A stretch of 64,000 nucleotides of DNA, from contig JAUJYZ010000499.1 of NCBI GenBank assembly GCA_033675265.1, positions 1-64,000 of the forward strand. The letters are read 5' to 3'. The DNA is from Actinostola sp. cb2023 (taxonomy: Eukaryota > Cnidaria > Anthozoa > Actiniaria > Actinostolidae). A program made the position numbers and the translations under genes. Under the pieces are notes generated by a model, which was not told the origin of the DNA, did no database searches, and saw only the letters and a list, made by a program, of their open reading frames with translations. Shown here in pieces: positions 25,131-61,175 of this stretch (position 1 is its first letter; each line of letters starts with the position of its first letter).

Positions 25131-25276
25131 CTAGTTAGTTTATCTCGGCTTCAACTCCGATACTGGAATACTATAAATGTAAGCTTGTGGTTCACTTTCT
25201 AGAACATGTGTTTATATTCCATGCACTGAACCGTTTGATCGAATTTGAGACAGTACACAGGCAACCCGGTAGAGGT

Positions 25277-32860: not shown

Positions 32861-32879
32861 GGGAGCATACATTGTACAT

Positions 32880-33472
32880 GTACTTGTTATATACTAACTG
32901 CTATGCATACATCAGTACATTTGCTGTACATACATGTACCTGTTATCTACTAACTGCTATGCATACATGTACCTGTTATCTATTAACTGCTATGCATACA
33001 TGTACCTGTTATCTACTAACTGCTATGCATACATGTACCTGTTATCTACTAACTGCTATGCATACATGTACCTGTTATCTACTAACTGCTATGCATATGT
33101 ACACGTACCTGTTATCTACTAACTGCTATGCATACATGTACCTGTTATCTATTAACTGCTATGCATACATGTACCTGTTATCTACTAACTGCTATGCATA
33201 CATGTACCTGTTATCTACTAACTGCTATGCATATGTACACGTACCTGTTATCTACTAACTGCTATGCATATGTACACGTACCTGTTATCTACTAACTGCT
33301 ATGCATACATGTACCTGTTATCTATTAACTGCTATGCATACATGTACCTGTTATCTATTAACTGCTATGCATACATGTACCTGTTATCTACTAACTGCTA
33401 TGCATATGTACACGTACCTGTTATCTACTAACTGCTATGCATACATGTACCTGTTATCTACTAACTGCTATG

Positions 33473-33511
<39 letters not shown>

Positions 33512-34088
33512 GCATGCATGTACCTGTTATCTACTAACTGCTATGCATACATGTACCTGTTATCTACTAACTGCTATGCATACATGTACCTGTTATCTAT
33601 TAACTGCTATGCATACATGTACCTGTTATCTACTAACTGCTATGCATACATGTACCTGTTATCTACTAACTGCTATGCATACATGTACCTGTTATCTACT
33701 AACTGCTATGCATACATGTACCTGTTATCTACTAACTGCTATGCATACATGTACCTGTTATCTACTAACTGCTATGCATGCATGTACCTGTTATCTACTA
33801 ACTGCTATGCATATGTACACGTACCTGTTATCTACTAACTGCTATGCATACATGTACCTGTTATCTATTAACTGCTATGCATGCATGTACCTGTTATCTA
33901 CTAACTGCTATGCATACATGTACCTGTTATCTACTAACTGCTATGCATACATGTACCTGTTATCTATTAACTGCTATGCATACATGTACCTGTTATCTAC
34001 TAACTGCTATGCATACATGTACACTGTACCTGTTATCTACTAACTGCTATGCATACATGTACCTGTTATCTACTAACTGCTATGCATA
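32880..34088. repeat. 33-bp minisatellite, left block
   Basis: About 35 units of the 33-bp sequence ACCTGTTATCTACTAACTGC then TATGCATACATGT, with variants (TATTAACTGC, CATATGTACACGT). One (TTA)n insertion sits near 33476-33510. All reading frames stay open because 33 is divisible by three, so the long repeat-protein frames are artefacts. It is split from the right block by the transposon at 34089-39468. Confidence 0.95.
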
Positions 34089-36421
34089 TGTTGTAGTTCA
34101 ATATGGATTCTGGTACAATTTGGTTTTGTACCGGTACAATTTGTTTTGAACTGGTACAATTTGTTTTGAACTGGTACAATTTGTTTTGAACTGGTACAAC
34201 ATGAAGTACCTTGGGGTTAGGTTTAGGGTTAGTATTGGCGAAGACTTTGTATTTTATTATAATCATGAAGTACCTTGGCGTTAGGTTTAGGGTTAGTATT
34301 GGGGAAGACTTTGTATTTTATTATAATCATGAAGTACCTTGGGGTTAGGTTTAGGGTTAGTATTGGGGTAGACTTGGTAGGAATGAATACAATCTGCTTC
34401 GTTCTACTAGAGAGCAAGACAGGTACATATGTACGTTCGAGTACGTGTTGACGTGAATACAAGCTGCTTCGTTCTACTAGAGAGCAAGACAGGGAAGCGT
34501 TGACACGTTGACGTGAATAAAACCTACATGTACTTCGTTCTACTAGAGAGCAATACAGGCACTCGATGTGAATACAGCTACTAGTAAAATAAATAAATAA
34601 ATATCATGTTTAACGTGTCAAGTGTTGATATCAGTATGGCTAGTGGGGACAAGACTCTCACACTCACTTCTTACTACATTATATATTCTGTACACCCAAC
34701 ACTCATCTCACTAGTTCGTTTTTACCGAGGGAGGAAAACCGGAGTACCGGGAGAAAATTCATCGAAGCAAGGGAGAGAACGAACCGGCTCACAACTCAAC
34801 TCGCGCCCGGTCCTTGAATTGAACCAGGCGCCACTATAGAACAAGACAGGTACGCTTTGACGGTTTAGGAATTTCTTTGCATTTTCATAAAATGTGTCTT
34901 CAAGTACGAAAATCACAAGCGAATGTTTACTTTTAGTTTCCTGTTTCAGGTTGTTATTTCTCGTTAGAAAGCCTCACGATCAACCCATGGTTCGTGATCC
35001 GCCATTTTGCTAAGTCCACGTTTTTGATCTAGCGCGCATGCGTGAATTTAAATGACATAATGACGTAATAGAAAATGAAAAAAACATTATAATAAAATGT
35101 AAATGTGACGGGGAGCTGAGTCCGGAAAATGGGGGTTTCGTTCAACCCACACCACAGTAAAGGTTTGACACCAGATTATGGTAGAATAGAACCTCCTGAA
35201 CAATGTCAGGTAGTTAGTAGAGTTGAAAAGTGGTATCAGTTTCGAGTTAAGGCGACTTTTTGTTGCGTGATTGGCAGTTTAGCATGGAAACGAGGCTCTT
35301 CAAGTAGTCACCTGTTTGAAGGCTAATTCTTTATTATCATAGCCGTAAATGTCTTCCAATACAACTTATCTTCACAATGTTGTGTAGTGCCACTAAGTGC
35401 CACATAAAATTGGTCACGTGACAAGTCACGTGGTTCGATAATCACGTTTTAATTGGTGAAAACAAAATATGGTTTTCTTGACCGATACGTATAGTCCCGT
35501 CAACGAATGACATAGGTTGGAAAAAAATGTTAACAGAGCTTTCTCACCTGAAATATGTTTATTAGTGTAATATCACTGCACACAAAAAAAAACCACCCGA
35601 AACCAGAAATAGGAACCCTCGTTTTCGACCCATGGAAAAACCTCGCTTTCAGGTCAAATCGAAGATGGCCACCATTATACAGTCTCGTCTCCAAACGCAC
35701 TTAAATTTGGAAATAAGTAAGTCAGAGACATATATGAAGTGTTAATTCCAGCTAATTTGAGCATGACCTTTCGTTTGGTGCTATTTTTGAGCTCGCTAGA
35801 GGTCAAGGTCATGCGTTAAGGTCAAGATCAAGGTCAAAGAAATATATAAAACATATGTACTTGCACTTTGTTGACGTATAATTAATTGGATATCCAAACC
35901 TGTGGGAGCTTGACAAGAAGTGCACTTCCGAGTGTGAAGATTGACAAAGTTACCTGAATTGTGGGCCTGGGAATGAGTTTTGAGTCAGCGGTAATTTTCG
36001 CGCCATTGAACGCTAGAGACAAGTTGATTCAGGTGAGTGATCTTGATCTTAATCTATACATTTCTTAATTAATCGATGAATTAACCTAATAGGATAAAAT
36101 ACTTACCATACTATTTGCAATTGTACATCTACGCTGAAGCAGCTTTTTTTTTAGCAAACTTAGACTAAGTGATTCAGATTATTTTCAATTGATATTCAAT
36201 CTTGCACAAAACGCAATCACAAAACTATGATAAAACACGGTAAAAAGCACAGAACATTTTACGTTTCTCTAGTAAAAAAAACTAGTTCCTTCTTTGACTA
36301 TTTAAAGAATAAACTTTTCTAAAGGTTACAAGTGATTATCCATTCACTCAAATCGTTTTGCATTCACTGCAAGCAAAACAGAAGAATTAGGTGAAGACTC
36401 TGCGCCTCGGAGCAAATCGAG

Positions 36422-38205
36422 ATGGATCCACAGCACCTCTACCAGCGTCTTATTATAATGGGTGTTGGTGATATCCCTCTTCCCGATCTCCTCCAATATG
36501 AGCTGTGCTCTTTACCCGCATCTCTCTTCGACAATCATATGTGCATGCGGACTGGGGACAAAGCCGAGCTCATCCATGATCATATCCTAAAGCTTGTCCC
36601 TGATTGCATCGTCCCATCCCTGCCCACTACAGAATTGCAGTATGTTATTGATGGGAGAGGATTGCTCCACAAGTTCGCTTGGCCCATGCAAACACTCTAC
36701 CTATGCCGAGATCTGTTCGATGTATAATCCGGCATGTGAGGTGAAGCAGCTATGGTCATGCATTGGTTGTGTTTGACGGATATCACGGCCCAAGCACTAG
36801 TGACGAAGCCCATCGTCACAGGACTGGGAATGATGTTGGTGCATCGGTCTCAGTTTCCGCAGAAATGCGTCTAACCATGAGCAAGAAGGCTTTCCTTGGC
36901 AATACATCAAACAAGCAGGCCCTTATCAACCTACTTGCATCGGAGATAGTCGAAGAAGGCATCGATGTAGAGCACGCAGTCGGGGATGCGGACTACAAAA
37001 TGATGCATGTCGGCATGCCTTTCAGCGACTGGAATGCCAACAGCTGTTGTCGCTGAAGATTCTGATGTGTTCCAGTTAATGACACATCATGTCGATGTCA
37101 CAGTTGTAACCTGTACATGGTGATGGCAAAACATGTACAAAAGGTCTGCATCACTACCTTGAAAAAGAAGTTGGATCCATCACTGTCAGAAGCTCTACTT
37201 TTCTTACACGCTATCAGCGGCTGTGATACCACATCAAGACCACATGGAATTGGTAAAATGACCGTTCTCAAGAAGTATGCAGCCCTGAAGAACTCAACCT
37301 ACATCTTCATGTCTCCATCGTCCTCGAAGGAGGCCATTGAAAAGGCAGGCGAGAAGGCCCTGCTGGTGATATACGGGTGTCCAACGTCACCAAACCTCAA
37401 CTCTGCGCGGGTGAAGAAGTTCCAGGTGATGGTGGCGACCTCTGCAGGGTACGTGCCCCCCCAGAGAAACTTCTACCCACAACAGAAGCAGCCTCCCACC
37501 ACAGTCATCGCACGTATCATCAGGTGCAGGCATGGCGTGAAAACGATGTCTCTTCTGAGCTTTGGGGTTGGTTAGCATCATCTGCTGGTCTTGTGCCTGT
37601 TAGAATGGCTCAGCCAGCAGCACCAGAGCGACTTCTCACAACGATAAAATGCAATTGTGGTGGTAGATGTGATAATAAAAAATACACCTGCCGCAAGAAT
37701 GGGCTCCAATGCACCAATGTGGCCAGCGCAAGGGCATCTCATGTTTAAACACGAAACCGTGCTATAAAAGGGCCTGTGCCAGGCAGCTAACACCTTCAGT
37801 TGTCAGTCATCCATCGTACTGTCAAGAGCTCTGCATCGTAACAATGGGCGCGAAATTTGAATTAAAAAAATTGAATTTCAAATTGTTGACTTTCTTCGTT
37901 CTTTTAATAACATCAAGAACTCATTTTCAAAATCTTGTTATTAGTTTTGAATGATCAGTTTTGAAAATATTGATATTTAGCTCAGTTTTATCGAAGTCCA
38001 GTTGAATAATAATTATGAACTTTGAGTCGTTCAATACGACATAAATACGAAGATGTTACTCCACCATTTCAAATTGATTCAACTGAGCTGGAAAGGTGTG
38101 AAATGAAGGCGGTCCAGTCCCTTTTATAGCGCGGTTTCGTGTTTAAATGCGCTACAATTGCAGAGCTGCGATTATGATAATGATGACGATTAACTATCAC
38201 ACAAG
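36422..38205 (+). pseudogene. Decayed transposon ORF with Cys-rich C-terminus
   Basis: Starts MDPQHLYQRLIIMGVGDIPL and reads in pieces: FDGYHGPSTSDEAHRHR, LHAISGCDTTSRPHGIGKMT, SELWGWLASSAGLVPVRM, then CNCGGRCDNKKYTCRKNGLQCTN. At least four frame changes are needed. A 392-bp MITE (37750-38141) splits the end; after it the frame continues CYNCRAADYDND and stops near 38193. The ISGCDTTS plus CxC cluster pattern belongs to a widespread family of transposon-encoded proteins of unknown function, recalled from animal genomes. I give it no catalytic role. Confidence 0.7.
37750..38141. mobile_element. 392-bp MITE inside the decayed ORF
   Basis: Inverted ends CACGAAACCGTGCTATAAAA and the mirrored TTTTATAGCGCGGTTTCGTG are bordered on both sides by TTTAAA (37744-37749, 38142-38147), which may be or contain the target duplication. 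No coding frame. Confidence 0.75.
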
Positions 38206-39074
38206 GCATGTTAGCTGTAATGAAACCCTGGACGCTGCTGTAAAACCCTGGTGTAACGTTTAATTCAATGTCACCAAGGGCTCAAATTTGGTAACTTTTA
38301 GGCTTTTCTGTTCAAATTTTACTTTGACCTTGACCTTGACCTTAACGCATGACCTTGACCTCTAGCGAGCTCAAAAGTAGCACCAAGCGAAAGGGCATGC
38401 TCAAATTAGCTGGAATTAACACTTCATATATGTCTCTGACTTACTTATTTCCAAAATTAAGCGCATTTGGAGACGAGACTGTATAATGGTGGCCATCTTG
38501 GATTTGATTTGAAAGCGAGGTTTTTCCATGGGTCGAAAACGAGGGTTCCTATGGCTGGTTTCGGGTTGTTTTTTTTGTGTGTGCAGTGATATTACACTAA
38601 TAAACATATTTCAGGTGAGAAAGCTTTGTTAACATTTTTTTTCCAACCTAAGTCATTCGTTGACGGGACTATAAGTATCGGTCAAGAAAACCATATTTTG
38701 TTTTTCACCAATTAAAACGTGATTATCGAACCACGTGACTTGTCACGTGACCAATTTTATGTGGCACTTAGTGGCACTACACAACATTGTGAAGATAAGT
38801 TGTATTGGAAGACATTTACGGCTATGATAATAAAGAATTAGCCTTCAAACAGGTGACTACTTGAAGAGCCTCGTTTCCATGCTAAACTGCCAATCACGCA
38901 ACAAAAAGTCGCCTTAACTCGAAACTGATACCACTTTTCAACTCTACTAACTACCTGACATTGTTCAGGAGGTTCTATTCTACCATAATCTGGTGTCAAA
39001 CCTTTACTGTGGTGTGGGTTGAACGAAACCCCCATTTTCCGGACTCAGCTCCCCGTCTATAAACCGACATCGAA

Positions 39075-39365
39075 ATCCTCGATGGCATAGTTGGTTAATG
39101 CGCTGGTCAACGCTGGTCTACAGTCAGAGTTCGGAGTTCGAGTCCCAGACAAGGTAAGACAAAAATTGAAAAAAATATGTTAATATGGTATTAAATAGAC
39201 AGATAGACAGAATTAATGTAGGCAGACAGGAAAGGAAAGGAGGGGTAGGTAGAGAGAGAATGAAGGGAGGGGTGGGTGCCAGGAAGTCGTCTAGTTCTTT
39301 TGAGAACCCCCTAAAAAAATCCAAGCCCCTGTTTTTTTAATGAGTCCCCAAAATAAAATCCCTTT
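39075..39365 (+). mobile_element. tRNA-derived SINE, copy 1
   Basis: The head at 39080-39152 has A-box (TGGCATAGTTGGTTAATGCG) and B-box (GAGTTCGAGTCCC) sequence. A variable purine-rich middle follows, then a conserved tail with TTCTTTTGAGAACC, CCAAGCCCCTG and TTAATGAGTCCCCAAAA. The same head and tail occur on the minus strand at 60878-61175. The conserved tail is probably what the LINE machinery recognises; that is inferred. Confidence 0.75.
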
Positions 39366-39469
39366 TAAGAATGCCAGATTGTACCAGTTCAAAACAAATT
39401 GTACCAGTTCAAAACAAATTGTACCAGTTCAAAACAAATTGTACCAGAATCCATATTGAACTACAACAC

Positions 39470-40322
39470 ATACATGTACCTGTTATCTATTAACTGCTAT
39501 GCATGTACATGTACCTGTTATCTACTAACTGCTATGCATACATGTACCTGTTATCTACTAACTGCTATGCATACATGTACCTGTTATCTACTAACTGCTA
39601 TGCATACATGTACCTCTTATCTATTAACTGCTATGCATACATGTACCTGTTATCTACTAACTGCTATGCATACATGTACCTGTTATCTACTAACTGCTAT
39701 GCATACATGTACCTGTTATCTACTAACTGCTATGCATACATGTACCTGTTATCTATTAACTGCTATGCATACATGTACCTGTTATCTACTAACTGCTATG
39801 CATACATGTACCTGTTATCTACTAACTGCTATGCATACATGTACCTGTTATCTACTAACTGCTATGCATACATGTACCTGTTATCTACTAACTGCTATGC
39901 ATGCATGCATGTACCTGTTATCTACTAACTGCTATGCATACATGTACACTGTACCTGTTATCTACTAACTGATATGCATACATGTACCTGTTATCTATTA
40001 ACTGCTATGCATGCATGCATGTACCTGTTATCTACTAACTGCTATGCATACATGTACCTGTTATCTACTAACTGCTATGCATACATGTACCTGTTATCTA
40101 TTAATTGCTATGCATGCATGTACCTGTTATCTACTAACTGCTATGCATGTACATGTACCTGTTATCTACTAACTGCTATGCATACATGTACCTGTTATCT
40201 ATTAATTGCTATGCATGCATGTACCTGTTATCTACTAACTGCTATGCATGCATGTACCTGTTATCTACTAACTGCTATGCATATATACATGTACCTGTTA
40301 TCTACTAACTGCTATGCATAAA
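39470..40322. repeat. 33-bp minisatellite, right block
   Basis: About 25 units, same orientation and unit as the left block. Trailing degenerate units run to about 40460. It was continuous with 32880-34088 before the 5.4-kb insertion. Confidence 0.95.
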
Positions 40323-41042
40323 TACAATTTTGTATGTACATGTACAATGTACCTGAACTCTACTAATTGCTATGCATACATGTACATGTACATGTACCTG
40401 TTACCCATCACCTGTTAATTACTATACCTGTTATCTACACAATGTAGTAACTCCTATGCATGCATATAGAATACCTCAGTTACCGCTACAGAACTGCCGT
40501 TAGTCAATATCATGTGATTTGATGTGCCCCAAAACGTCATGCAAGTACCCGACCAAACAAGTAAAACATTTCAATAAAACATCATAAAACGGTCGCACTA
40601 GTACAGAACATATACAATGTATGGGTACAGAGTCAGCGACCATTACTGGAATAAGTTATATACTCTGCATTTATTTGAACCTTTTGACCATTGCTTCAAA
40701 GCACTTTTAGCTCACAGGAATAGGAATACAAGAGATACAGTAAATTGACTTTAATAACCGAAACAAAAAAGCCCTTATGATATCCAAAACTAACAGCTGT
40801 TCTTGTGCCCTTTTTTAGTGAAACAAGAGAAAACAATATAGTTATTAAACAATACTATTTAGTATTAGTAGAAACCATGAACTAGCATACTATCACGAAT
40901 CCTGCAATCTGATTGGGTAACATACTCACTATCTGGTTTATGACTATTGTAATGTAAATGTCAATAGAGTGCAAACAAACATATTATATACATATACAGT
41001 ACATGTATAATTATTTTCATAAATATATTCATGTTTTTGCAG

Positions 41043-43180
41043 GCCCCTGTGGAGAGTTTCTCTTAAAAGCAGTTCGTGGTGGATCAAAAACAACATTCTA
41101 TCCAAGGATGGTTTTTCCCTATTATTCTCTCATAAAATATCTGCAGATATTGCTAAAACGTCCTGGATTTTGGGGCAAATGTCAAGAATGGAGAGACAAA
41201 GAAACTCCAGAGAATATAATGTCAGATGTTCATCATGGACGTGTATGGAAAGAGTTATCTTCCACTGGTTTTCTTTCAAACATAAATAGTCTTGCATTAG
41301 CATTTAATGTTGATTGGTTTCAACCACATAAACACACACCAGGATCAATTGGAGTTCTCTACATGGTTGTACTCAATCTTCCAAGAGAAGAGAGGTATAA
41401 ATTGGAGAATGTTATTGTTGTAGGCATTCTGCCAGGACCATCTGAGCCTAAACTGACAGCAAACACTTTTTTAAAACCATTAGTGGATGCATGAACTAAA
41501 GATATTGTGGAAAGGAAGAGAAACATTCTCTGTGAGTGGCAGTATTTTCAAAAAGATTATAAAAGTTGGGCTGATATGTGTCACCTGTGATATACCAGCA
41601 TCAAGAAAAATAGGAGGGTTTATGGGACATATGGCAAATCAAGGTTGTTCTCGTTGCAAAAGACAATTTTGTAAAGATGGGTGTTTAAACTTTTCTGGTT
41701 TTAACCGTGATCTATGGCCTCCTAGAATTTCCAGTGAACACAAGAAATTAGCACGTGATACTTTACACGAAACATCACCTACTACCCAACAAGCCAAATG
41801 TTCTGAACATGGTGCAAGGTATTCTGTCCTGCATGAACTTGATTACTTTGATTGTATCAGGTTTTTTGTAATAGATCCTATGCATAACTTATACCTTGGA
41901 ACAGCAAAACACATGATGAAAAACATCTGGCAGAAAGAGGAATCACCAATGTTCAGTGATGAGGACTTTAAAAAGATGCAAGCATGTGTGGATTCTACTG
42001 ATTACTCCTCAAGACATTGGACGAATATATCCCAGCAAAAATTGCATATAGCTTTGGGGATTTTACAGCTGACCAATGGCAAAACTGGACCATTGTGTAC
42101 TCCATGTATGCTCTTCAGGATATCCTTACAAAAGAACATCTGGATTGTTGGAGGTTGTTTGTTAATGCATGTAAGCGGCTTGGAAAGAAAGTGGTTACAG
42201 TTGAAGACATTGAATTAGGAGATCAGTATTTGATTCAGTTTTTACACAAATTTGAAGAACTTTATGGCACCTCTGCAGTAACACCTAATATGCATTTACA
42301 TGGACATCTTAAGGAGTGTGTGTATGACTTTGGACCTTTTCATGGATTTTGGTGTTTTAGCTTTGAACGCTATAATGGAATACTTGGAAGATACAATACT
42401 AACAACTGCTCTATCGAAATTCAGATTATGAGGAAATTCCTTGCTCAAATCAAGTCAAAAGTATTTGAGATGCCAGAAATGTTCAGAGATGATTTTAAGC
42501 ATTTTTTTGAGGATACAGAATCAACAGGATCTTTAAAGACTACAATCGATCAAATTCACCAACTTCATGCTTTAAAGAGACACCAAAACATTCCAGTTAA
42601 GGAACTAAGCTTAGCAGAATGGAATGATTTTTCTCTTCTGCAGCCAATACCTCCAATTCAAGATCATACTCTTGACAATGAAGATGTCCAGTATCTCAAA
42701 GTGGTGTATGGTCTACTGATTGGAATACAAAACATTGACCGTTTAGACATTCCCTTTACAGTTGGGAAATATTCCTGCATAAAAATTGGATCTATATTGT
42801 ATGGATCCCTTAGCAGTAGGACCATTCGCAACTCCTATATTCTGGCAAAATGGGCAAGTGGTTTTGGTCGAATCAATGACAATATGCAAAGACCAGGAGA
42901 GGTTTTATATTATTTCTGCCATAGAGTTAAAGTCAAATCATTGGACTTGTCAGCTGATGAAACATACACCTTCCATCTTGCAAGGATTAATTGGTATTCA
43001 AATCACCCAGATCAGAATAGTCTTGGTGAACCTCTACAGATATGGTGTAAAGAGTTTGACAGTTTTGGGCCTGCTTGTTTTATGCCAATTCAAAGAATAA
43101 TGTCAAGATGTGTTGCAACTGAAGGAGTATTTCATAGGGAGAAGGTAATGATAGTTACTTCTCTTCCAGGTGAAGCATAA
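41043..43180 (+). pseudogene. CACTA transposase, catalytic exon (tnp2-type DDE domain)
   Basis: Follows a TTTGCAG acceptor and begins GPCGEFLLKAV, in phase with the donor at 31638. It carries the three acidic centres expected for tnp2/EnSpm transposases: NVDWFQPHKH (first Asp), FFVIDPMHNLYLGTAKHMM (second Asp) and WCFSFERYNGILGRY (Glu). GHMANQGCSRCKRQFCKDGC is the inserted zinc-type motif. The frame is broken near 41489, where four extra bases (GCAT) separate LVD from ELKILWKG, and again near 42014, before IPAKIAYSFGDFTADQWQNW. It ends at a TAA at 43178-43180. The family match is very strong; the copy is inactive unless these shifts are assembly errors. Confidence 0.93.
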
Positions 43181-44348: not shown

Positions 44349-45016
44349 AGTCGCGGAGGAAAGAGAGTCCAGTATTATAACTTGCATGCGCATGGCAGCT
44401 TAGCAGCCAGGCGACCACCACAAATATGTGGTGGTCGCCTGGTTACAAAGCCTGTCTGATCTCCAAAATGGGGGAGGCTCCAGTAAATCCTGGTTTAATA
44501 ATTTAATATTTATATTGCACAGTTTTTCAGTTCTGTATGAGTGATATCAGTCGAATTTTGCGAAGAATTTCATCGATTCCGTGAAGTTTTCCCTCGCAAA
44601 GAGTAATTATAATATTGTTCCAAAGTTTGAACAGCTCCAAGCCATTTATCAAGTGACTCGTGGGAAGGATGTTTTTGTTAATTTGAGTACGGGCTTTGGA
44701 AAGTCCCTGATTTATTCTTTATTAATCTGCACGCGCTGTCAGCCATTTCATTCCATTTTATTTTGACAGCTCCGCGTACATGAGGTAAAATAGACAAAAT
44801 CGGCCAACGCAATGTTTACATTCTTTAACCCAATTCAAACCCTTTGCAAACAATATTTCCATTTCATTTCCATGTCAATGCTCTATTGAAGATCTGAAAT
44901 GGGTCAAAGAATGTAAACATTGTGTTGGTTGATTTGGTCTATTCAGCTCCGATCTGATTGGCTGCTAAGCTGCCATGTGCATGCAAGTTATACTGGACTC
45001 TCTTTCCTCCGCGACT
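44349..45016. mobile_element. 668-bp inverted-repeat element carrying a helicase fragment
   Basis: Arms of about 70 bp: AGTCGCGGAGGAAAGAGAGT, continuing CCAGTATTATAAC, mirrored on the right with a few changes. The interior encodes a 61-codon frame (44581-44766, plus) reading QAIYQVTRGKDVFVNLSTGF then GKSLIYSLL. This is a Walker A motif in a RecQ-like helicase context, cut off before the later motifs. It looks like a deletion derivative of a helicase-encoding element. Confidence 0.7.
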
Positions 45017-46723: not shown

Positions 46724-49700
46724 TCAACAACTCTGGAAACAAAGTTTAAATTTCAGTTCTTCTACCACTGTATCCATGTTTGGGCGAGTGAATGGAATTC
46801 TTTGAGTGCATTTATCCGCCACATTACCAATGACTCCAGAACCTACCTGAACATCAGTATGCTTATTTACAGTGGTTAGCAAAATGCCCAAAGAATATAC
46901 ATCAGAAGAAAATGTCTGTTTGTGAGAGCCATCAATCAGTTCAGGAGCAATGTGACTGTGTTTTTTCAGGTATGTGTCTCTTTCCATTGGTGGTACACAT
47001 TTGTTCCTTCCTGCTGAAATTTTGCAGCTTTTTCCAAAGTCAATTATAACAGGACTTGGCTTTCCCTCAACAAAATCAATGACTACATTATCTGTTTTTA
47101 AGTCATTATGCAAATAGCCTTTTATGTGCATGTGTAAAAGTCCTCGTACAACTCCATAGCAGATGGATTGAAAACACAGAATACCTGAATAATTTTCACT
47201 CTTCAATGCATACCATAAAGTAATTCCTTCCAAGTTTTTCCCATGGAACTTAGTAACAATATATTTATTTTCCATGTTTTTGGGGCTGATACCCAATAAT
47301 ATTGGCAGATTTGGGTGTCCTTCTAGCACTTTCACTATTTTTGCTTCATTCAGTAAATCTTGGTATGAACTTTCTTTTAAATATTTCACCGACACTTCAA
47401 TGTTTCGATACAGCTTAAGAGTACAAATACCAAATGCCCCACTTCCTATGTGTTTGGACTTATGATCTGCAACTGCCTGTATGTCAATAAGTAATTCATT
47501 AGGAATTTGTGTGAAATTATCTCTCACACTAGTAGATGACAATGAAGCACTAGATGAAATTGTCCGTTTGTGAAGACTTTTCCCTTGACAACTATGTTGA
47601 TACTTTTGCAACTGTGTTTTGGTCTTTTGAAGATCTTGTTGGGTACATATTAGTTCTTGTTGTACACCAGCATGATGTGCATGTGCTTCCTTTAAAGCTT
47701 TATCAGTATCTTCTATTTGCTTTCTGAAGACTTCATTTTCTTTTATAAGAGATGTGGCAGCTGAAATTGAATTATTTGCTGTACAGGTATTACAATCTGT
47801 GCCGACAGGTGTTTTCATGGCAAGGCCTTGATAATGATATTTGTAACCTGAGCTATGCTTCCCTCTTCTGATACCTGGAAAAGCAATTCTTACAATGCGA
47901 CCAATTTCTTGCTCAGTTAACTCTCTACCATATTGAGACCAGATAATTTGCTTGATTTCCTCACATCCAACCCGTTTTCCTGCACTTTCAACCAACTGTG
48001 TTTTAAGCCTAAAATAAAAAGAGATTTCATTTTCATTATTGTAACATGAATTTATACAAGAAAAATATGTATTCCTCAAAATGAAATCATGTTGATGTGA
48101 CAGTGTCCCTTTGTTCACATCTTTGACAATCGTTTTTAAGTATTTTAAGTATAATTCTTTATGTTAGAAGTAATGTAGATTTTACTTCCACGGAATTTGG
48201 GTTTGGTTCAACGTCATCTAATTGGTATCTAGCAACGTTTTGCGTAACGACTTACTTAGGCGTGTTGCAGTACATTACGTTACACACTAATCTGATTTAC
48301 TGATAACGGATTAGCGCGTGTTGTCACGTTTATTACCTAACATTATTTCACAACCTTGCCACTAGGCAGATGTATTCTGTTAAGTTAGATATAGTAATTT
48401 CTACAGTAGTTTTAGGATTACTTTGAACTAGTTTAGTTTGAGTTGGGATCAACTATTAATTGGTTTATCCACGTTTAGGACACACGGCTACAGTTATTTT
48501 AGGTGGGATGCATGACGCGTTTCCGGTGTCAACATACCGAATAGTTGCACGTGTTACGACACTAGCTATTATAAATACAGCGTTCTAATGCATTAGTTTT
48601 CCGAGTTAACATTGGGGTTGCTCCCCAGAGGAGTTGATCTCTGGTCAGCGAGTGTTGTGCCATGTTCTCAGAATGCTAGCTCATTCCCGTTTTGTTTTGT
48701 ATACACGTTTTAGTATACACGTTTTGTATGTACCCGTTGTTTAGTATATGATTCGTTTACTATGCCGTCTAGTATTCGTTTCAGTATTTCGTCCAGTTTT
48801 GATATATTGTAGTTTTCAATATCTGCTTTAAGTGAACTCGAGAGTATAGCTTACGATGCGTTTGCTAAGGGATTATAAGCACTCGTACATGTAGTTATCA
48901 GTTCGTATCCAGTTATTGTATACTTTCAGTTAGTCTCGTAATTAAATTGTAGTTTATCTTTCTCTTGTATTCAATAAACATGATATAAGTCCACACCTTG
49001 CATTCAGAAAGAATTCATTTTCTTCATTTAAAAGATTTCCTCGCGCTTACCGCTCAGCGCTTCCTTACAATATGGTGTCAGAATTCCCTGCGTTTGTTTC
49101 TATAGTGATTCTTCATCGTTTCATTATAGTGTATTGTAGTAACCATTTTCCCCGGTTACATTTTGGTGTCAGAAGTGGGATGCAAGTGTATTTTAGTGGC
49201 TTTTGTTACGGAATTACAGTTTGTTATACAAGAGTTAGTGAACTGTTTTATTACGGATTGTTTTCAAACAAGTTAGGCTTTATGTTTTTAAACGGGAATG
49301 AGTAAAGAAGAGCGTAAATTCAAGGCTGGCACGTGGAAGAAAGAAGATGCCTGGAGTAGCTATGTGGCACGTCATGATGTTCGGGATACCCCAGCAAGGA
49401 GAAGCGAGCGCATAGAGTACAACTGAGGCAGAGCAGTAGTTGCGAGTGGATGGGTATCAAGTGGTAGTGCGATTGGCTTGTGGTGGCGACCGACCAGTGA
49501 CAGCACCCTTGTGTATTCATGGCATGTTGATGCGACAGGCTAAAGCCCTAGCATGCCATGAAAGGAGCGCAAGTGACGGCGGTGGAAGTCGGTGTGGAGC
49601 ATATTGAGCGGATTCCTGATAGAGGACCTGTGAGACAGTACCCACACGGGATCTTACAGCCAGCCTCTGATGTATGTAGTACCTGGAATAGTCTCTCATG

Positions 49701-52700
49701 GGGAAGCTCTACTGGATGACCATTGGGATGCCAAAGTGTTTGTCATCTGGGAAGGAAGCTAGTATTGAGGTTCGGTCAATGGGCCCTTGGCGCGGCCTCG
49801 TGTTATTGCAGTGCGTCACAACGTAAAGGCGTTCTGCGGGTTTTTATTTGCAAGCTGATGCTACACCAGTGATTGGGAGTCTACTCGCACAAACTGGATG
49901 ATATGGCTTATCATGGACTATGGTGGATTTAACCTGGACTTGACTTTATTACAAAATGTATTACCTTCACTGTATGACTGGTGGAACCAAAAGGCAAACT
50001 GTATAAAGTGATGGGAGATGGAGTGTTTGACTACATGTTCAGCTGGTGGTTATAGTGATTAGCTCTCACGAGGTTCACTTGGCCAACGCCGCCCCAGTTA
50101 TGGAACTTATGCTTAGCCAACAGGGAGACTTCAATACAATTCACCGAAACACATGCGTCTGGAGGTTGAAGATACCACATTCAGGAGTGAACCGATGGTG
50201 CAGCATTGTGGTTGCGTGAGTGATCGTCAGGTTGGACATCGTACAGATTTATAGTTAACAAGGACTTGTAAGAAGAAATGAACTGAACTTTACTTATATT
50301 TTGTAGGACTTGTTAGTTAGTGTAGTTTGTTTTTGTTTAGTTCACATGAGGACATGTTGAACAAAAGGAGGGGCGAATGTGACAGTGTCACTTTGTTCAC
50401 ATCTTTGACAATCGTTTTTAAGTATTTTAAGTATAATTCTTTATGTTAGAAGTAATGTAGATTTTACTTCCACGGAATTTGGGTTTGGTTCAACGTCATC
50501 TAATTGGTATCTAGCAACGTTTTGCGTAACGACTTACTTAGGCGTGTTGCAGTACATTACGTTACACACTAATCTGATTTACTGATAACGGATTAGCGCG
50601 TGTTGTCACGTTTATTACCTAACATTATTTCACAACCTTGCCACTAGGCAGATGTATTCTGTTAAGTTAGATATAGTAATTTCTACAGTAGTTTTAGGAT
50701 TACTTTTGAACTAGTTTAGTTTGAGTTGGGATCAACTATTAATTGGTTTATCCACGTTTAGGACACACGGCTACAGTTATTTTAGGTGGGATGCATGACG
50801 CGTTTCCGGTGTCAACATACCGAATAGTTGCACGTGTTACGACACTAGCTATTATAAATACAGCGTTCTAATGCATTAGTTTTCCGAGTTAACATTGGGG
50901 TTGCTCCCCAGAGGAGTTGATCTCTGGTCAGCGAGTGTGTTTGTGCCATGTTCTCAGAATGCTAGCTCATTCCCGTTTGTTTTGTATACACGTATTTTGT
51001 ATACACGTTTTAGTATGTACCCGTTGTTTAGTATATGATTCGTTTACTATGCCGTCTAGTATTCGTTTCAGTATTTCGTCCAGTTTTGATATATTGTAGT
51101 TTTCAATATCTGCTTTAAGTGAACTCGAGAGTATAGCTTACGATGCGTTTGCTAAGGGATTATAAGCACTCGTACATGTAGTTATCAGTTCGTATCCAGT
51201 TATTGTATACTTTCAGTTAGTCTCGTAATTAAATTGTAGTTTATCTTTCTCTTGTATTCAATAAACATGATATAAGTCCACACCTTGCATTCAGAAAGAA
51301 TTCATTTTCTTCATTTAAAAGATTTCCTCGCGCTTACCGCTCAGCGCTTCCTTACAATATGGTGTCAGAATTCCCTGCGTTTGTTTTCTATAGTGATTCT
51401 TCATCGTTTCATTATAGTGTATTGTAGTAACCATTTTCCCCGGTTACATTTTGGTGTCAGAAGTGGGATGCAAGTGTATTTTAGTGGCTTTTGTTACGGA
51501 ATTACAGTTTGTTATACAAGAGTTAGTGAACTGTTTTATTACGGATTGTTTTCAAACAAGTTAGGCTTTATGTTTTTAAACGGGAATGAGTAAAGAAGAG
51601 CGTAAATTCAAGGCTGGCACGTGGAAGAAAGAAGATGCCTGGAGTAGCTATGTGGCACGTCATGATGTTCGGGATACCCCAGCAAGGAGAAGCGAGCGCA
51701 TAGAGTACAACTGAGGCAGAGCAGTAGTTGCGAGTGGATGGGTATCAAGTGGTAGTGCGATTGGCTTGTGGTGGCGACCGACCAGTGACAGCACCCTTGT
51801 GTATTCATGGCATGTTGATGCGACAGGCTAAAGCCCTAGCATGCCATGAAAGGAGCGCAAGTGACGGCGGTGGAAGTCGGTGTGGAGCATATTGAGCGGA
51901 TTCCTGATAGAGGACCTGTGAGACAGTACCCACACGGGATCTTACAGCCAGCCTCTGATGTATGTAGTACCTGGAATAGTCTCTCATGGGGAAGCTCTAC
52001 TGGATGACCATTGGGATGCCAAAGTGTTTGTCATCTGGGAAGGAAGCTAGTATTGAGGTTCGGTCAATGGGCCCTTGGCGCGGCCTCGTGTTATTGCAGT
52101 GCGTCACAACGTAAAGGCGTTCTGCGGGTTTTTATTTGCAAGCTGATGCTACACCAGTGATTGGGAGTCTACTCGCACAAACTGGATGATATGGCTTATC
52201 ATGGACTATGGTGGATTTAACCTGGACTTGACTTTATTACAAAATGTATTACCTTCACTGTATGACTGGTGGAACCAAAAGGCAAACTGTATAAAGTGAT
52301 GGGAGATGGAGTGTTTGACTACATGTTCAGCTGGTGGTTATAGTGATTAGCTCTCACGAGGTTCACTTGGCCAACGCCGCCCCAGTTATGGAACTTATGC
52401 TTAGCCAACAGGGAGACTTCAATACAATTCACCGAAACACATGCGTCTGGAGGTTGAAGATACCACATTCAGGAGTGAACCGATGGTGCAGCATTGTGGT
52501 TGCGTGAGTGATCGTCAGGTTGGACATCGTACAGATTTATAGTTAACAAGGACTTGTAAGAAGAAATGAACTGAACTTTACTTATATTTTGTAGGACTTG
52601 TTAGTTAGTGTAGTTTGTTTTTGTTTAGTTCACATGAGGACATGTTGAACAAAAGGAGGGGCGAATGTGACAGTGTCACTTTGTTCACATCTTTGACAAT

Positions 52701-55700
52701 CGTTTTTAAGTATTTTAAGTATAATTCTTTATGTTAGAAGTAATGTAGATTTTACTTCCACGGAATTTGGGTTTGGTTCAACGTCATCTAATTGGTATCT
52801 AGCAACGTTTTGCGTAACGACTTACTTAGGCGTGTTGCAGTACATTACGTTACACACTAATCTGATTTACTGATAACGGATTAGCGCGTGTTGTCACGTT
52901 TATTACCTAACATTATTTCACAACCTTGCCACTAGGCAGATGTATTCTGTTAAGTTAGATATAGTAATTTCTACAGTAGTTTTAGGATTACTTTGAACTA
53001 GTTTAGTTTGAGTTGGGATCAACTATTAATTGGTTTATCCACGTTTAGGACACACGGCTACAGTTATTTTAGGTGGGATGCATGACGCGTTTCCGGTGTC
53101 AACATACCGAATAGTTGCACGTGTTACGACACTAGCTATTATAAATACAGCGTTCTAATGCATTAGTTTTCCGAGTTAACATTGGGGTTGCTCCCCAGAG
53201 AGTTGATCTCTCTGGTCAGCGAGTGTTGTGCCATGTAAGTATCTCAGTTACAATGCTAGAATGCTAGCTCATTCCCGTTTTTATACACGTTTTTTGTATA
53301 CACGTTTTTTGTATACACGTATTTTAGTAGTATGTACCCGTTGTTTAGTATATGATTCGTTTACTATGCCGTCTAGTATTCGTTTCAGTATTTCGTCCAG
53401 TTTTGATATATTGTAGTTTTCAATATCTGCTTTAAGTGAACTCGAGAGTATAGCTTACGATGCGTTTGCTAAGGGATTATAAGCACTCGTACATGTAGTT
53501 ATCAGTTCGTATCCAGTTATTGTATACTTTCAGTTAGTCTCGTAATTAAATTGTAGTTTATCTTTCTCTTGTATTCAATAAACATGATATAAGTCCACAC
53601 CTTGCATTCAGAAAGAATTCATTTTCTTCATTTAAAAGATTTCCTCGCGCTTACCGCTCAGCGCTTCCTTACAATATGGTGTCAGAATTCCCTGCGTTTG
53701 TTTCTATAGTGATTCTTCATCGTTTCATTATAGTGTATTGTAGTAACCATTTTCCCCGGTTACATTTTGGTGTCAGAAGTGGGATGCAAGTGTATTTTAG
53801 TGGCTTTTGTTACGGAATTACAGTTTGTTATACAAGAGTTAGTGAACTGTTTTATTACGGATTGTTTTCAAACAAGTTAGGCTTTATGTTTTTAAACGGG
53901 AATGAGTAAAGAAGAGCGTAAATTCAAGGCTGGCACGTGGAAGAAAGAAGATGCCTGGAGTAGCTATGTGGCACGTCATGATGTTCGGGATACCCCAGCA
54001 AGGAGAAGCGAGCGCATAGAGTACAACTGAGGCAGAGCAGTAGTTGCGAGTGGATGGGTATCAAGTGGTAGTGCGATTGGCTTGTGGTGGCGACCGACCA
54101 GTGACAGCACCCTTGTGTATTCATGGCATGTTGATGCGACAGGCTAAAGCCCTAGCATGCCGTGAAAGGAGCGCAAGTGACGGCGGTGGAAGTCGGTGTG
54201 GAGCATATTGAGCGGATTCCTGATAGAGGACCTGTGAGACAGTACCCACACGGGATCTTACAGCCAGCCTCTGATGTATGTAGTACCTGGAATAGTCTCT
54301 CATGGGGAAGCTCTACTGGATGACCATTGGGATGCCAAAGTGTTTGTCATCTGGGAAGGAAGCTAGTATTGAGGTTCGGTCAATGGGCCCTTGGCGCGGC
54401 CTCGTGTTATTGCAGTGCGTCACAACGTAAAGGCGTTCTGCGGGTTTTTATTTGCAAGCTGATGCTACACCAGTGATTGGGAGTCTACTCGCACAAACTG
54501 GATGATATGGCTTATCATGGACTATGGTGGATTTAACCTGGACTTGACTTTATTACAAAATGTATTACCTTCACTGTATGACTGGTGGAACCAAAAGGCA
54601 AACTGTATAAAGTGATGGGAGATGGAGTGTTTGACTACATGTTCAGCTGGTGGTTATAGTGATTAGCTCTCACGAGGTTCACTTGGCCAACGCCGCCCCA
54701 GTTATGGAACTTATGCTTAGCCAACAGGGAGACTTCAATACAATTCACCGAAACACATGCGTCTGGAGGTTGAAGATACCACATTCAGGAGTGAACCGAT
54801 GGTGCAGCATTGTGGTTGCGTGAGTGATCGTCAGGTTGGACATCGTACAGATTTATAGTTAACAAGGACTTGTAAGAAGAAATGAACTGAACTTTACTTA
54901 TATTTTGTAGGACTTGTTAGTTAGTGTAGTTTGTTTTTGTTTAGTTCACATGAGGACATGTTGAACAAAAGGAGGGGCGAATGTGACAGTGTCACTTTGT
55001 TCACATCTTTGACAATCGTTTTTAAGTATTTTAAGTATAATTCTTTATGTTAGAAGTAATGTAGATTTTACTTCCACGGAATTTGGGTTTGGTTCAACGT
55101 CATCTAATTGGTATCTAGCAACGTTTTGCGTAACGACTTACTTAGGCGTGTTGCAGTACATTACGTTACACACTAATCTGATTTACTGATAACGGATTAG
55201 CGCGTGTTGTCACGTTTATTACCTAACATTATTTCACAACCTTGCCACTAGGCAGATGTATTCTGTTAAGTTAGATATAGTAATTTCTACAGTAGTTTTA
55301 GGATTACTTTGAACTAGTTTAGTTTGAGTTGGGATCAACTATTAATTGGTTTATCCACGTTTAGGACACACGGCTACAGTTATTTTAGGTGGGATGCATG
55401 ACGCGTTTCCGGTGTCAACATACCGAATAGTTGCACGTCAGAGTGTTTACGACACTAGCTATTATAAATACAGCGTTCTAATGCATTAGTTTTCCGAGTT
55501 AACATTGGGGTTGCTCCCCAGATCGTTTGATTGGAGTTGATCTCTGGTCAGTAATTTAGAGTGTTGTGCCATGTTCTCAGAATGCTAGCTCATTCCCGTT
55601 TTGTTTTGTATACACGTTTTGTATACACACGTTTTAGTATGTACCCGTTGTTTAGTATATGATTCGTTTACTATGCCGTCTAGTATTCGTTTCAGTATAT

Positions 55701-58700
55701 TTCGTCCAGTTTTGATATATTGTAGTTTTCAATATCTGCTTTAAGTGAACTCGAGAGTATAGCTTACGATGCGTTTGCTAAGGGATTATAAGCACTCGTA
55801 CATGTAGTTATCAGTTCGTATCCAGTTATTGTATACTTTCAGTTAGTCTCGTAATTAAATTGTAGTTTATCTTTCTCTTGTATTCAATAAACATGATATA
55901 AGTCCACACCTTGCATTCAGAAAGAATTCATTTTCTTCATTTAAAAGATTTCCTCGCGCTTACCGCTCAGCGCTTCCTTACAATATGGTGTCAGAATTCC
56001 CTGCGTTTGTTTTCTATAGTGATTCTTCATCGTTTCATTATAGTGTATTGTAGTAACCATTTTCCCCGGTTACATTTTGGTGTCAGAAGTGGGATGCAAG
56101 TGTATTTTAGTGGCTTTTGTTACGGAATTACAGTTTGTTATACAAGAGTTAGTGAACTGTTTTATTACGGATTGTTTTCAAACAAGTTAGGCTTTATGTT
56201 TTTAAACGGGAATGAGTAAAGAAGAGCGTAAATTCAAGGCTGGCACGTGGAAGAAAGAAGATGCCTGGAGTAGCTATGTGGCACGTCATGATGTTCGGGA
56301 TACCCCAGCAAGGAGAAGCGAGCGCATAGAGTACAACTGAGGCAGAGCAGTAGTTGCGAGTGGATGGGTATCAAGTGGTAGTGCGATTGGCTTGTGGTGG
56401 CGACCGACCAGTGACAGCACCCTTGTGTATTCATGGCATGTTGATGCGACAGGCTAAAGCCCTAGCATGCCATGAAAGGAGCGCAAGTGACGGCGGTGGA
56501 AGTCGGTGTGGAGCATATTGAGCGGATTCCTGATAGAGGACCTGTGAGACAGTACCCACACGGGATCTTACAGCCAGCCTCTGATGTATGTAGTACCTGG
56601 AATAGTCTCTCATGGGGAAGCTCTACTGGATGACCATTGGGATGCCAAAGTGTTTGTCATCTGGGAAGGAAGCTAGTATTGAGGTTCGGTCAATGGGCCC
56701 TTGGCGCGGCCTCGTGTTATTGCAGTGCGTCACAACGTAAAGGCGTTCTGCGGGTTTTTATTTGCAAGCTGATGCTACACCAGTGATTGGGAGTCTACTC
56801 GCACAAACTGGATGATATGGCTTATCATGGACTATGGTGGATTTAACCTGGACTTGACTTTATTACAAAATGTATTACCTTCACTGTATGACTGGTGGAA
56901 CCAAAAGGCAAACTGTATAAAGTGATGGGAGATGGAGTGTTTGACTACATGTTCAGCTGGTGGTTATAGTGATTAGCTCTCACGAGGTTCACTTGGCCAA
57001 CGCCGCCCCAGTTATGGAACTTATGCTTAGCCAACAGGGAGACTTCAATACAATTCACCGAAACACATGCGTCTGGAGGTTGAAGATACCACATTCAGGA
57101 GTGAACCGATGGTGCAGCATTGTGGTTGCGTGAGTGATCGTCAGGTTGGACATCGTACAGATTTATAGTTAACAAGGACTTGTAAGAAGAAATGAACTGA
57201 ACTTTACTTATATTTTGTAGGACTTGTTAGTTAGTGTAGTTTTGTTTTTGTTTAGTTCACATGAGGACATGTTGAACAAAAGGAGGGGCGAATGTGACAG
57301 TGTCACTTTGTTCACATCTTTGACAATCGTTTTTAAGTATTTTAAGTATAATTCTTTATGTTAGAAGTAATGTAGATTTTACTTCCACGGAATTTGGGTT
57401 TGGTTCAACGTCATCTAATTGGTATCTAGCAACGTTTTGCGTAACGACTTACTTAGGCGTGTTGCAGTACATTACGTTACACACTAATCTGATTTACTGA
57501 TAACGGATTAGCGCGTGTTGTCACGTTTATTACCTAACATTATTTCACAACCTTGCCACTAGGCAGATGTATTCTGTTAAGTTAGATATAGTAATTTCTA
57601 CAGTAGTTTTAGGATTACTTTGAACTAGTTTAGTTTGAGTTGGGATCAACTATTAATTGGTTTATCCACGTTTAGGACACACGGCTACAGTTATTTTAGG
57701 TGGGATGCATGACGCGTTTCCGGTGTCAACATACCGAATAGTTGCACGTGTTACGACACTAGCTATTATAAATACAGCGTTCTAATGCATTAGTTTTCCG
57801 AGTTAACATTGGGGTTGCTCCCCAGAGGAGTTGATCTCTGGTCAGCGAGTGTTGTGCCATGTTCTCAGAATGCTAGCTCATTCCCGTTTTGTTTTGTATA
57901 CACGTTTTGTATACACGTTTTAGTATGTACCCGTTGTTTAGTATATGATTCGTTTACTATGCCGTCTAGTATTCGTTTCAGTATTTCGTCCAGTTTTGAT
58001 ATATTGTAGTTTTCAATATCTGCTTTAAGTGAACTCGAGAGTATAGCTTACGATGCGTTTGCTAAGGGATTATAAGCACTCGTACATGTAGTTATCAGTT
58101 CGTATCCAGTTATTGTATACTTTCAGTTAGTCTCGTAATTAAATTGTAGTTTATCTTTCTCTTGTATTCAATAAACATGATATAAGTCCACACCTTGCAT
58201 TCAGAAAGAATTCATTTTCTTCATTTAAAAGATTTCCTCGCGCTTACCGCTCAGCGCTTCCTTACAATATGGTGTCAGAATTCCCTGCGTTTGTTTCTAT
58301 AGTGATTCTTCATCGTTTCATTATAGTGTATTGTAGTAACCATTTTCCCCGGTTACATTGATTTCAAATAACAAAAGGTACAAGCGGGCACTGGGGGCAG
58401 TTAAAGGGAGGGGGGGGCACTGGGGGCAGTTAAAGGGAGGGGGGGCACTGGGGGCAGTTAAAGGGAGGGGGGGGGGCATCCAGGGTATGCAAAAGTGTAC
58501 ATATAAGCGTATGTACAGTTGTTTACATGTAATTATTGTTTCATATTTATAAGTTATAAGACTAAATCATATAAAGCCTAAGCTGTTTCGAGTTCAATTT
58601 GGAATTCAGTTTAAGTTTATAACTGACAAAGAGTAAGAAAATACCATATAAATTTGAGCTCTTTGAAAAACACTTATTTTGTAATGTGCTATACTTACCA

Positions 58701-58778
58701 TTGTGCACGATTCAATCTCAAAGTTCTATTAAGTCTTTGAAAACATCTTGATTGACTTGATCCTGATCCAGACGCCAT
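46724..58778 (-). CDS. RFX-like DNA-binding protein kinase carried by the CACTA element (2 exons, 454 aa)
   Basis: Exon 1 is 58778-58699 (MASGSGSSQSRCFQRL..., donor GGTAAGT); exon 2 is 48008-46724 (acceptor TTTTAG). The junction codon TGG gives QWLKTQLVES in frame, restoring the QWL start of an RFX-type winged helix. Residues 24-90 continue with EIGRIVRIAFPGIRRGKH and YKYHYQGL, as in RFX DNA-binding domains. A predicted coiled coil spans about 115-165. The kinase domain (about 205-450) has the glycine loop GSGAFG (215-220), Lys235 in VSVKYL, Glu248, HND at 327-329 in place of HRD, Asn334, DFG at 350-352, APE at 381-383 and Arg435. All catalytic residues are present, so activity is plausible. 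The frame is intact, unlike the transposase. A 10.7-kb intron holds an LTR array. Its promoter faces inward from the right end of the element. Family-level kinase assignment (Ser/Thr or Tyr-like) is open. Confidence 0.88.
48096..49160 (+). repeat. First LTR of the array, with TATA and poly(A) signals
   Basis: 1065 bp, TG...CA ends. Contains CTATTATAAATACAGCG near 48568, a likely TATA box, and AATAAA at 48973-48978. The first LTR reads GTGTCCCTTT where the other four read GTGTCACTTT. The outer two LTRs are the same length, 1065 bp. Confidence 0.88.
49161..50377 (+). mobile_element. Internal region of the LTR element (one of four)
   Basis: Begins with TGGTGTCAGAAGTGGGAT (49164), which looks like a primer-binding site complementary to the 3' end of a leucine-type tRNA. 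Ends with the polypurine tract AAAAGGAGGGGCGAA just before the next LTR. The only sensible frame is 42 codons starting MSKEERKFKAGTWKKEDAWS (from 49300), possibly the start of a lost gag. There is no protease, reverse transcriptase or integrase. It is equivalent to the regions at 51449, 53765 and 56075. This fits a TRIM/LARD-like element mobilised by another copy. Confidence 0.85.
58376..58483. repeat. G-rich 31-bp tandem repeat
   Basis: Three copies of GCACTGGGGGCAGTTAAAGG then GAGGGGGGG, immediately after the LTR array and upstream of kinase exon 1's donor side. The G-runs could form quadruplexes on the plus strand. Confidence 0.9.
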
Positions 58779-58859: not shown

Positions 58860-59595
58860 ACAAAACGCATGCATGTACTGAATAACAGAAAAATGCCGGT
58901 AAAATGCGAATTATCCTGTATAGAGATAATTGTAAGTAAAACGCAAGAAATGGGGATGAATATTGAGGGTGAATTCGCCATACATTTTACCGTGCGGGAT
59001 ATGTTGTATATTAATGCATGTCATCGCGATGGAATAACGCAGGGAAATGTAAGAGATAACACGCTTTATCCTGACTTGTAAAACGAACGGAAAATCTATC
59101 GTAAAATATGATGTTATCTCTTCGTTTTACATATAAGGAAAATGAGTGCAAAATATTATGTTTGCAAGTTCGAGATAACAACAGAAAAATGCCGGTAAAA
59201 TGCGAATTATCCTGTATAGAGATAATTGTAAGTAAAACGCAAGAAATGGGGATGAATATTGAGGGTGAATTCGCCATACATTTTACCGTGCGGGATATGT
59301 TGTATATTAATGCATGTCATCGCAATGGAATAACGCAGGGAAATGTAAGAGATAACACGCTTTATCCTGACTTGTAAAACGAACGGAAAATCTATCGTAA
59401 AATATGGTGTTATCGCTTAATTTTACTTATGAGTAAAATGAAGGTAAAATTTGATTGGAAAACGTAGGTATAACGAAGGTAAAATATAAAATTATCTCTA
59501 CTTAGTAAAACGCGTAGATAATGCAAGACTATTTTAGATTATCCCTGAATTTGGCTTTTTACAAAATTCATGATAACGCGGCCTTTTTTGCCGTG
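58860..59595. repeat. Right subterminal repeat region of the CACTA element
   Basis: Two direct copies of a roughly 230-bp segment, offset by 296 bp (from 58884 and 59180), differ at only a few positions. They share GCCGGTAAAATGCGAATTAT and AAGAGATAACACGCTTTATC. Motifs ATAACGC, GATAACAC and GGTAAAAT recur up to the terminus, as in the left end. Confidence 0.85.
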
Positions 59596-59747
59596 GGTTA
59601 GAGGCACGGAGACCAGAAGATCGACCCCAGCGGCTAATTATAACCGGCTTTATTTGTGATCTAGCTGGGGGATTATATCGCCTCGAAAAAGATCTAGCTT
59701 GAATGGAGATTGGAGATGGTACAGGTTAGATCACTTAGCCCAAAGGA

Positions 59748-60877: not shown

Positions 60878-61175
60878 GGGTGGGATTTTTTTTGGGGACT
60901 CATTAATAAAACAGGGGCTTGGATTTTTAGGGGGTGGTTCTCAAAAGAACCGAAACAACTTTGCCTAATCCTCCCTTCCCTTCTTTTCCCTTTCCTTATT
61001 CCCTTATGATCTTGCATTTCCCTCGTCACCTATTCCATCACCACCCTCCTCCCTAAGTTAACATAACAAATTAGCATATATTTTTTATTTTTGTACTTAC
61101 CTGAACGGAGATTCGAACCACAGACCTTCGGTTTGCAAGACCAAAGCTTTACCACTATACCAGCGAGGATTGTGA
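60878..61175 (-). mobile_element. tRNA-derived SINE, copy 2
   Basis: On the minus strand: a tRNA-like head (CGCTGGTATAGTGGTAAAGC, anticodon-loop CTTGCAA, then GGTTCGAATCTCCG), a variable middle, and the same tail as 39075-39365 (TTCTTTTGAGAACC, CCAAGCCCCTG, TTAATGAGTCCCCAAAA). The acceptor stem does not pair, so it is not a functional tRNA. Confidence 0.78.

Follow-up and report, generated by a model that had tools for sequence, protein, structure and literature searches.

Within a 64,000-nucleotide stretch of the genome of Actinostola sp. cb2023 (Cnidaria, Actiniaria; contig JAUJYZ010000499.1, positions 1 to 64,000), hereafter the window, we find a CACTA-type DNA transposon that holds two genes in tail-to-tail arrangement: a tnp2 transposase gene on the plus strand and, on the minus strand, a gene whose product joins an RFX-like winged helix to a protein kinase (RFX-kinase). 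This confirms an initial annotation of the same DNA, which had placed such a fusion inside a CACTA element. The layout recurs elsewhere in the host genome, and it is probable that animal CACTA (tnp2) elements comprise a lineage with a second, tail-to-tail gene, which encodes a kinase preceded by a coiled coil and, at the N-terminus, by a module that is either basic or of DNA-binding type. The window element would be a copy of that lineage whose transposase is now broken and whose module is the RFX-like winged helix. Very probably the kinase is an integral gene of the element. Few transposons are as well known as CACTA elements; to our knowledge, little has been established about the second protein in their animal members, and we know of no CACTA element with a control layer that works by phosphorylation.

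Anatomy of the element and its kinase gene

The element extends over 34,319 bp (25277-59595). Its termini are perfect 21-bp inverted repeats, the left one (CACGGCAAAAAAGGCCGCGTT, 25277-25297, plus strand) being the exact inverted counterpart of the right one (59575-59595, minus strand), and they are flanked by a 3-bp target site duplication, GGT, at 25274-25276 and 59596-59598. Subterminal arrays of the words TTTTAC and GATAAT occupy both ends: the terminal 600 bp on the left (25277-25876) and on the right (58996-59595) hold 19 words each; 606 other overlapping windows average 1.05 and never exceed 7. In CACTA elements as described, the transposase binds to the terminal inverted repeats; subterminal repeats and a 3-bp duplication are further features (PMC8978399). 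With CAC-initial termini, the 3-bp duplication, subterminal repeats and an internal tnp2 (Transposase_21) transposase, the window element belongs to the CACTA/EnSpm class. Its termini start with CACGG and do not spell the full CACTA letters, which are likewise missing from one animal CACTA member (PMC1636069).

The main exon of tnp2 (41044-43180, plus strand) is read in three overlapping frames with two breaks, near 41490 and 42000. It is 72% identical (68-80% piece by piece) to P0039, a sequence of the protein database that carries PF02992; the first piece of the window gene matches PF02992 below the cut-off (E 2.1e-4). As the frame is broken, this copy, judged by its sequence, probably lacks autonomy; its kinase frame is intact. 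The RFX-kinase gene consists of exon 1 (58699-58778), with the start codon 817 bp inside the right terminus, an intron (48009-58698) and exon 2 (46724-48008), all on the minus strand. The intron contains a tandem array (48095-58360) of about 4.5 units of 2.3 kb that are 96.7-99.7% alike; as far as its sequence can tell, this array is a recent tandem expansion within a transposon intron.

From the N to the C terminus, the protein comprises the RFX-like winged-helix domain (47813-48010, about residues 27-92), a long helix (47588-47770; 61 residues in the predicted model) that is a probable coiled coil, and the kinase domain with the C-terminus (46727-47461), all encoded on the minus strand. The initial annotation had expected profile matches for both RFX and kinase, and both were obtained, at different strength. 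The kinase match is strong, and the predicted kinase keeps all conserved catalytic residues and the fold, with HRD reading HND. PF02257 (RFX) scored 15.2-19.4 bits against a cut-off of 27, depending on the stretch submitted, and it matched at E ≤ 1 in five of seven family N-termini (best 2.6e-4). Given this sub-threshold score, we file the domain as RFX-like and not as an RFX factor; no further RFX-family domain is among the Pfam matches of the protein. The predicted N-terminal model has an RFX-type winged-helix fold, which stands out in structural comparison, at 21-24% identity to solved RFX domains. A sequence search of the PDB with the N-terminal profile gave no significant match (RFX5 came fourth, E 0.41), and the case for RFX hence rests on fold comparison, profile comparison and a shared pattern.

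Kinase and tnp2 genes as neighbours in the host genome

The host genome comprises 424 Mb in 1594 contigs. For the kinase query, 98 of 273 candidates were scored and gave 99 matches, or 98 places after a second match on C902, to the N-terminal part, was merged. The tnp2 query, P0039, gave 69 matches from 63 of 348 candidates scored; merging pieces of one gene left 62 places. Twelve kinase-tnp2 pairs lie within 2 kb of each other, all of them tail-to-tail, where about 0.06 would be expected by chance from 98 kinase and 62 tnp2 places. Within 5 kb there are 17 pairs (15 tail-to-tail, two same-strand; 0.14 by chance), and within 20 kb there are 19 (17 tail-to-tail, two same-strand; 0.57 by chance), with the chance numbers assuming an even spread of places over the genome and the window itself contributing one of the 19. 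Additional tail-to-tail pairs beyond the scored tnp2 list occur on C614 and C1357; here tnp2 is about 1.3 kb away and the kinase genes are P0013-like, each at 99.7% to P0013. Near-identical contigs may be alleles (e.g., C672/C1484), so that independent events are fewer than pairs. The linkage that the initial annotation proposed to look for in other copies is thus found at many places, and the kinase is not confined to the window locus.

A host kinase gene could also have been picked up by a CACTA element as a passenger that has no role in transposition. Plant CACTA elements have been described to capture gene fragments and satellite arrays (PMC8978399). The intron of the window kinase harbors a satellite-like array, 79 of the 98 kinase-like places lack a listed tnp2 at a distance of up to 20 kb, and no kinase is listed for some of the elements whose ends match, all of which would suit a passenger. 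Against this, the tail-to-tail layout recurs in families with distant kinase exons (dN 0.48-0.67), which requires either one old acquisition that was kept or repeated captures in parallel, always in the same orientation. Nor is the kinase likely to be a conserved annotated host gene, because nine RFX-like relatives lack an NCBI or UniRef entry, whereas tnp2 of named animals is present. Altogether, we regard passenger capture as improbable.

Comparison of copies showed that kinase-side ends are sharp and start with CACAGGGCGAAA at C1162, C9 and C318, and also at C309 and C1424. The flanks differ at C9, C318 and C1162, which hence represent separate insertions; near-identical related elements at separate sites would imply recent activity of related elements. 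Inverted CACAGGGCGAAA pairs within 15 kb were found nine times, their contents being judged from the listed tnp2 and kinase matches, and three of the nine (C9, C318, C1162; 12.0-12.9 kb) enclose tnp2 together with a kinase. Five CACAGGGCGAAA elements were checked for duplications, and four have matching 3-bp copies (C1162 TTC, C318 TGT, C578 CAC, C1276 CAA). From the ends and duplications at C318 and C1162 it follows that at least two complete CACTA-type elements hold both genes. Around the C614 pair, no inverted ends of at least 11 bp were present within the 19.5 kb examined.

As the window element contains several other insertions, the kinase gene might itself lie within another mobile element nested in the CACTA element. 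The inverted pair that spans the gene (39259-39362 / 60882-60986), however, has one arm outside the CACTA element, and the remaining gene-spanning inverted pairs are simple repeats or weak 35-nt, 74% matches into the intron array. Moreover, the start codon is less than a kilobase from the CACTA terminus, and the same layout is seen inside other CACTA elements. With linkage, enclosing ends and 3-bp duplications recurring elsewhere, a nested origin is largely refuted and seems to us scarcely credible.

Relatives and the N-terminal module

In the protein database, a single-sequence search with the RFX-kinase found 37 matches and a profile search 53. P0002, P0003, P0004, P0005, P0006, P0008, P0010 and P0159 align across winged helix, coil and kinase at 27-59% identity; in a ninth relative, P0013, the N-terminus is a diverged RFX-like version. 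None of these nine has an NCBI or UniRef entry. The tnp2 matches listed (the best 120 of 2083) include named corals, an anemone, hemichordates and a mollusc. Neither viral contigs, scanned for kinase, tnp2 and the exact terminal repeat, nor prokaryote genome contigs, scanned for kinase and tnp2, yielded relatives.

The sequences of P0002, P0003 and P0004 begin within the winged-helix domain. In the others, the frame enters the domain via ..FRL (P0005, P0006, P0010, P0013), ..SRL (P0008) or ..NRL (P0159), and exon 2 of the window gene reads ..FRLK after the acceptor. This common entry suggests one intron position shared by the window gene and its relatives. P0005 and P0006, whose longest contigs differ, are 98% identical, and a further copy, P0009, is 91% alike and carries a deletion; such near-identical copies would fit mobile DNA, with alleles as an alternative. 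In a tree of 61 kinase domains, the window protein forms a group with P0002, P0003 and P0160 (100/100), which is joined by seven further sequences (99/97). P0010 and P0013 are placed elsewhere in the tree, and the RFX-like end is thus spread over more than one kinase clade.

Within the host genome, the RFX-like pattern appears in a 540-residue frame on C902 and also on C1316; C627 and C852 match the query N-terminus, and the pattern scan picked out neither of them. The C614 kinase aligns to the family across a diverged RFX-like N-terminus. An RFX-like kinase together with tnp2 was seen at the window and C614 only, the N-terminus at C1357 not having been read. What stays the same across these elements is hence the kinase, with the RFX-like module as one among its front ends. 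Of the combination that the initial annotation described, the RFX part is thus not the constant one: the kinase genes read at three other tnp2-linked loci have a basic frame upstream.

The RFX-like protein might be the equivalent of plant TnpA, i.e., a binder of subterminal repeats to which a kinase was added, a possibility that overlaps with a kinase companion gene of the lineage. Plant Spm encodes TnpA as a second protein, and TnpA regulates the element promoter (PMC1636069). The dense subterminal arrays at both ends of the window element could serve as binding sites, and the RFX-type winged helix is a DNA-binding fold. The array words TTTTAC and GATAAT, by contrast, are unlike the RFX X-box. 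Three other tnp2-linked kinase loci have no RFX-like frame, and the left end holds another candidate gene. We hence consider TnpA equivalence unlikely.

An anti-host or silencing role can also be envisaged, in which the element kinase targets chromatin or the defences of the host, for instance through piRNA, cell-cycle or stress signalling; here, too, the kinase is an element gene, and the two explanations overlap. Catalytic residues are all kept while the N-terminal module varies, and no element-binding site is recognisable in the ends, as might be expected of a kinase directed at the host. The RFX-like domain and the basic frames point instead to nucleic acid, and no target is named by the data. 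Such a role appears rather unlikely.

Evidence against a common kinase companion

Besides the many kinase-like places with no listed tnp2 nearby, a count that covers the scored candidates alone, several observations weigh against our view of a CACTA lineage with a kinase companion gene. The window RFX-kinase is single-copy among the scored matches, its closest relative, on C902, being 41% identical. A genome search with the first 12 bases CACAGGGCGAAA found 43 places, compared with 31 for the reversed control; with so modest an excess, single matches mean little and the inverted pairs carry the case. Among these pairs, however, C310, C578 and C1276 have a listed tnp2 and no listed kinase, C731 has a listed kinase and no listed tnp2, and C591 and C864 have neither gene listed. 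C9 is the one checked element without a 3-bp duplication, its flanks reading CTT and CAT.

The N-terminal module differs between loci. Upstream of the kinase exons at C309, C318 and C304, all linked to tnp2, lie frames with many lysine and arginine residues in which we saw no RFX-like pattern; we infer that these frames belong to the kinase gene. The Pfam RFX match is below threshold for C902 and P0159 (E 0.019 each), and the C1316 and P0013 (C614 type) segments gave none. No tnp2 was found in the 8.6-9.7 kb downstream of the C902, C1316, C627 and C852 kinases; upstream of the C852 kinase, at about 9 kb, there is a weak tnp2 match (E 1e-11). Finally, neither end of the window element contains an X-box-like site with two mismatches or fewer.

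The initial annotation had called for a dN/dS comparison across copies. Between element families, three of the four comparisons made on the kinase C-lobe exon could be computed and gave ratios of 0.21, 0.26 and 0.37, with saturated dS (1.8-2.6). The fourth comparison yielded no value, and six comparisons of near-identical copies contain too few changes to tell. The L019-L020 pair has a ratio of 0.46, inflated by an apparent frame difference at the exon start. The kinase exon hence leans towards long-term constraint, although not decisively.

Other contents of the window

Near the left end, an open frame beginning MERNRKRRRQTCSKCG (27926-28606, plus strand) may form the first coding exon of tnp2. 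Open frames on the minus strand that include an acidic stretch (26150-27741) may encode another element protein. This possible third gene lies in pieces, split by a short inverted-repeat insertion (about 27140-27480), and gave no Pfam family above the cut-off. The interior of the element holds a nested, unclassified mobile element (35107-39057) with inverted arms of ~740 bp that are 97% alike (35107-35845 / 38316-39057). Frames bearing the phrase LHAISGCDTTS (36395-37745) lie between these arms, and a Pfam scan of the frames in this region found nothing above the cut-off. It is flanked by 33-bp minisatellite arrays (ATGTACCTGTTATCTACTAACTGCTATGCAT..) at 32800-34150 and 39400-40400. Between tnp2 and the kinase gene there is a short element with 61-bp inverted ends, 93% alike (44349-45016), and ahead of the kinase gene, in the right subterminal region, a 279-bp direct duplication, 95% alike (58881-59455).

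To the left of the element, a UFL1 C-terminal domain (E 2.3e-34; 19007-19459) marks a likely host gene, and a frame at 8272-8730 resembles what we take to be BUD13, presumably another host gene. Elsewhere in the genome, the inverted CACAGGGCGAAA ends on C591 (42136-46955) are 4.8 kb apart and may delimit a non-autonomous derivative; those on C864 (245245-258128) are 12.9 kb apart.

Discussion

On balance, we favor that the N-terminal module tethers the kinase to DNA. It would hold the kinase at element DNA, at chromatin or in the transposition complex, and the coiled coil could pair subunits into a dimeric kinase. The kinase might then phosphorylate the transposase or nearby host chromatin and repair proteins, and this phosphorylation could license or time the excision or expression of the element. 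With some reserve, we can envisage that the kinase is a conserved transposition factor throughout the lineage, provided with an interchangeable N-terminal targeting module, and that phosphorylation at the ends times excision or steers repair. That the transposase or the repair machinery in particular are its substrates is a suggestion we make with more reserve still.

If the kinase has been kept beside tnp2 across families, a DNA transposon would possess its own signalling enzyme, in parallel to TBE elements of ciliates, and RFX-like winged helices would be placed in mobile DNA. The system allows one to ask whether a transposon-borne kinase regulates transposition, repair or host silencing; tests of the second protein of an animal CACTA element have been called for (PMC1636069). 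Among the papers that our searches of an open-licence library listed, none showed a CACTA-borne kinase or an RFX-like transposon protein.

Single parts of the window element resemble known systems. Its winged helix differs from the DNA-binding domain of RFX1 and RFX5 by the low sequence identity, the Pfam score under the cut-off and the kinase fusion. Like Chenopodium Jozin (PMC8978399), the window element is a CACTA element with tandem arrays and additional coding sequence in its interior; the Jozin captures are fragments, in contrast to an intact gene that recurs beside tnp2 in one orientation, and the word kinase is absent from the main text of that paper. Plant En/Spm (tnpA, tnpD) and Schistosoma SmTRC1 share with it the CACTA-type ends, the tnp2-type transposase and a second protein that is not a transposase (PMC1636069). 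En/Spm TnpA and SmTRC-PrA, however, arise by alternative splicing of one unit, whereas the window kinase has a separate tail-to-tail gene; in PMC1636069, the word kinase does not occur.

The closest parallel is TBE of Oxytricha, likewise a cut-and-paste transposon with an accessory protein composed of a predicted DNA-binding module and a kinase (PMC4724952, PMC12242761). Its 57-kD zinc-finger/kinase protein is under purifying selection (PMC4724952). The sole experiment we found on a comparable protein, ChIP-seq of the 57-kD protein in E. coli, saw no specific DNA binding (PMC12242761), which counts against our reading. The initial annotation knew of no described transposon with this combination; in general terms TBE already provides a DNA-binding/kinase protein, and the combination found here differs in its parts. 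TBE has a Tc1/mariner transposase, a zinc finger instead of an RFX-like winged helix, a ciliate host and a further 22-kD gene. What would be new is hence a probable CACTA lineage with a kinase companion gene, and for this kinase the TBE-like feature of recurrent linkage to the transposase inside element ends is present.

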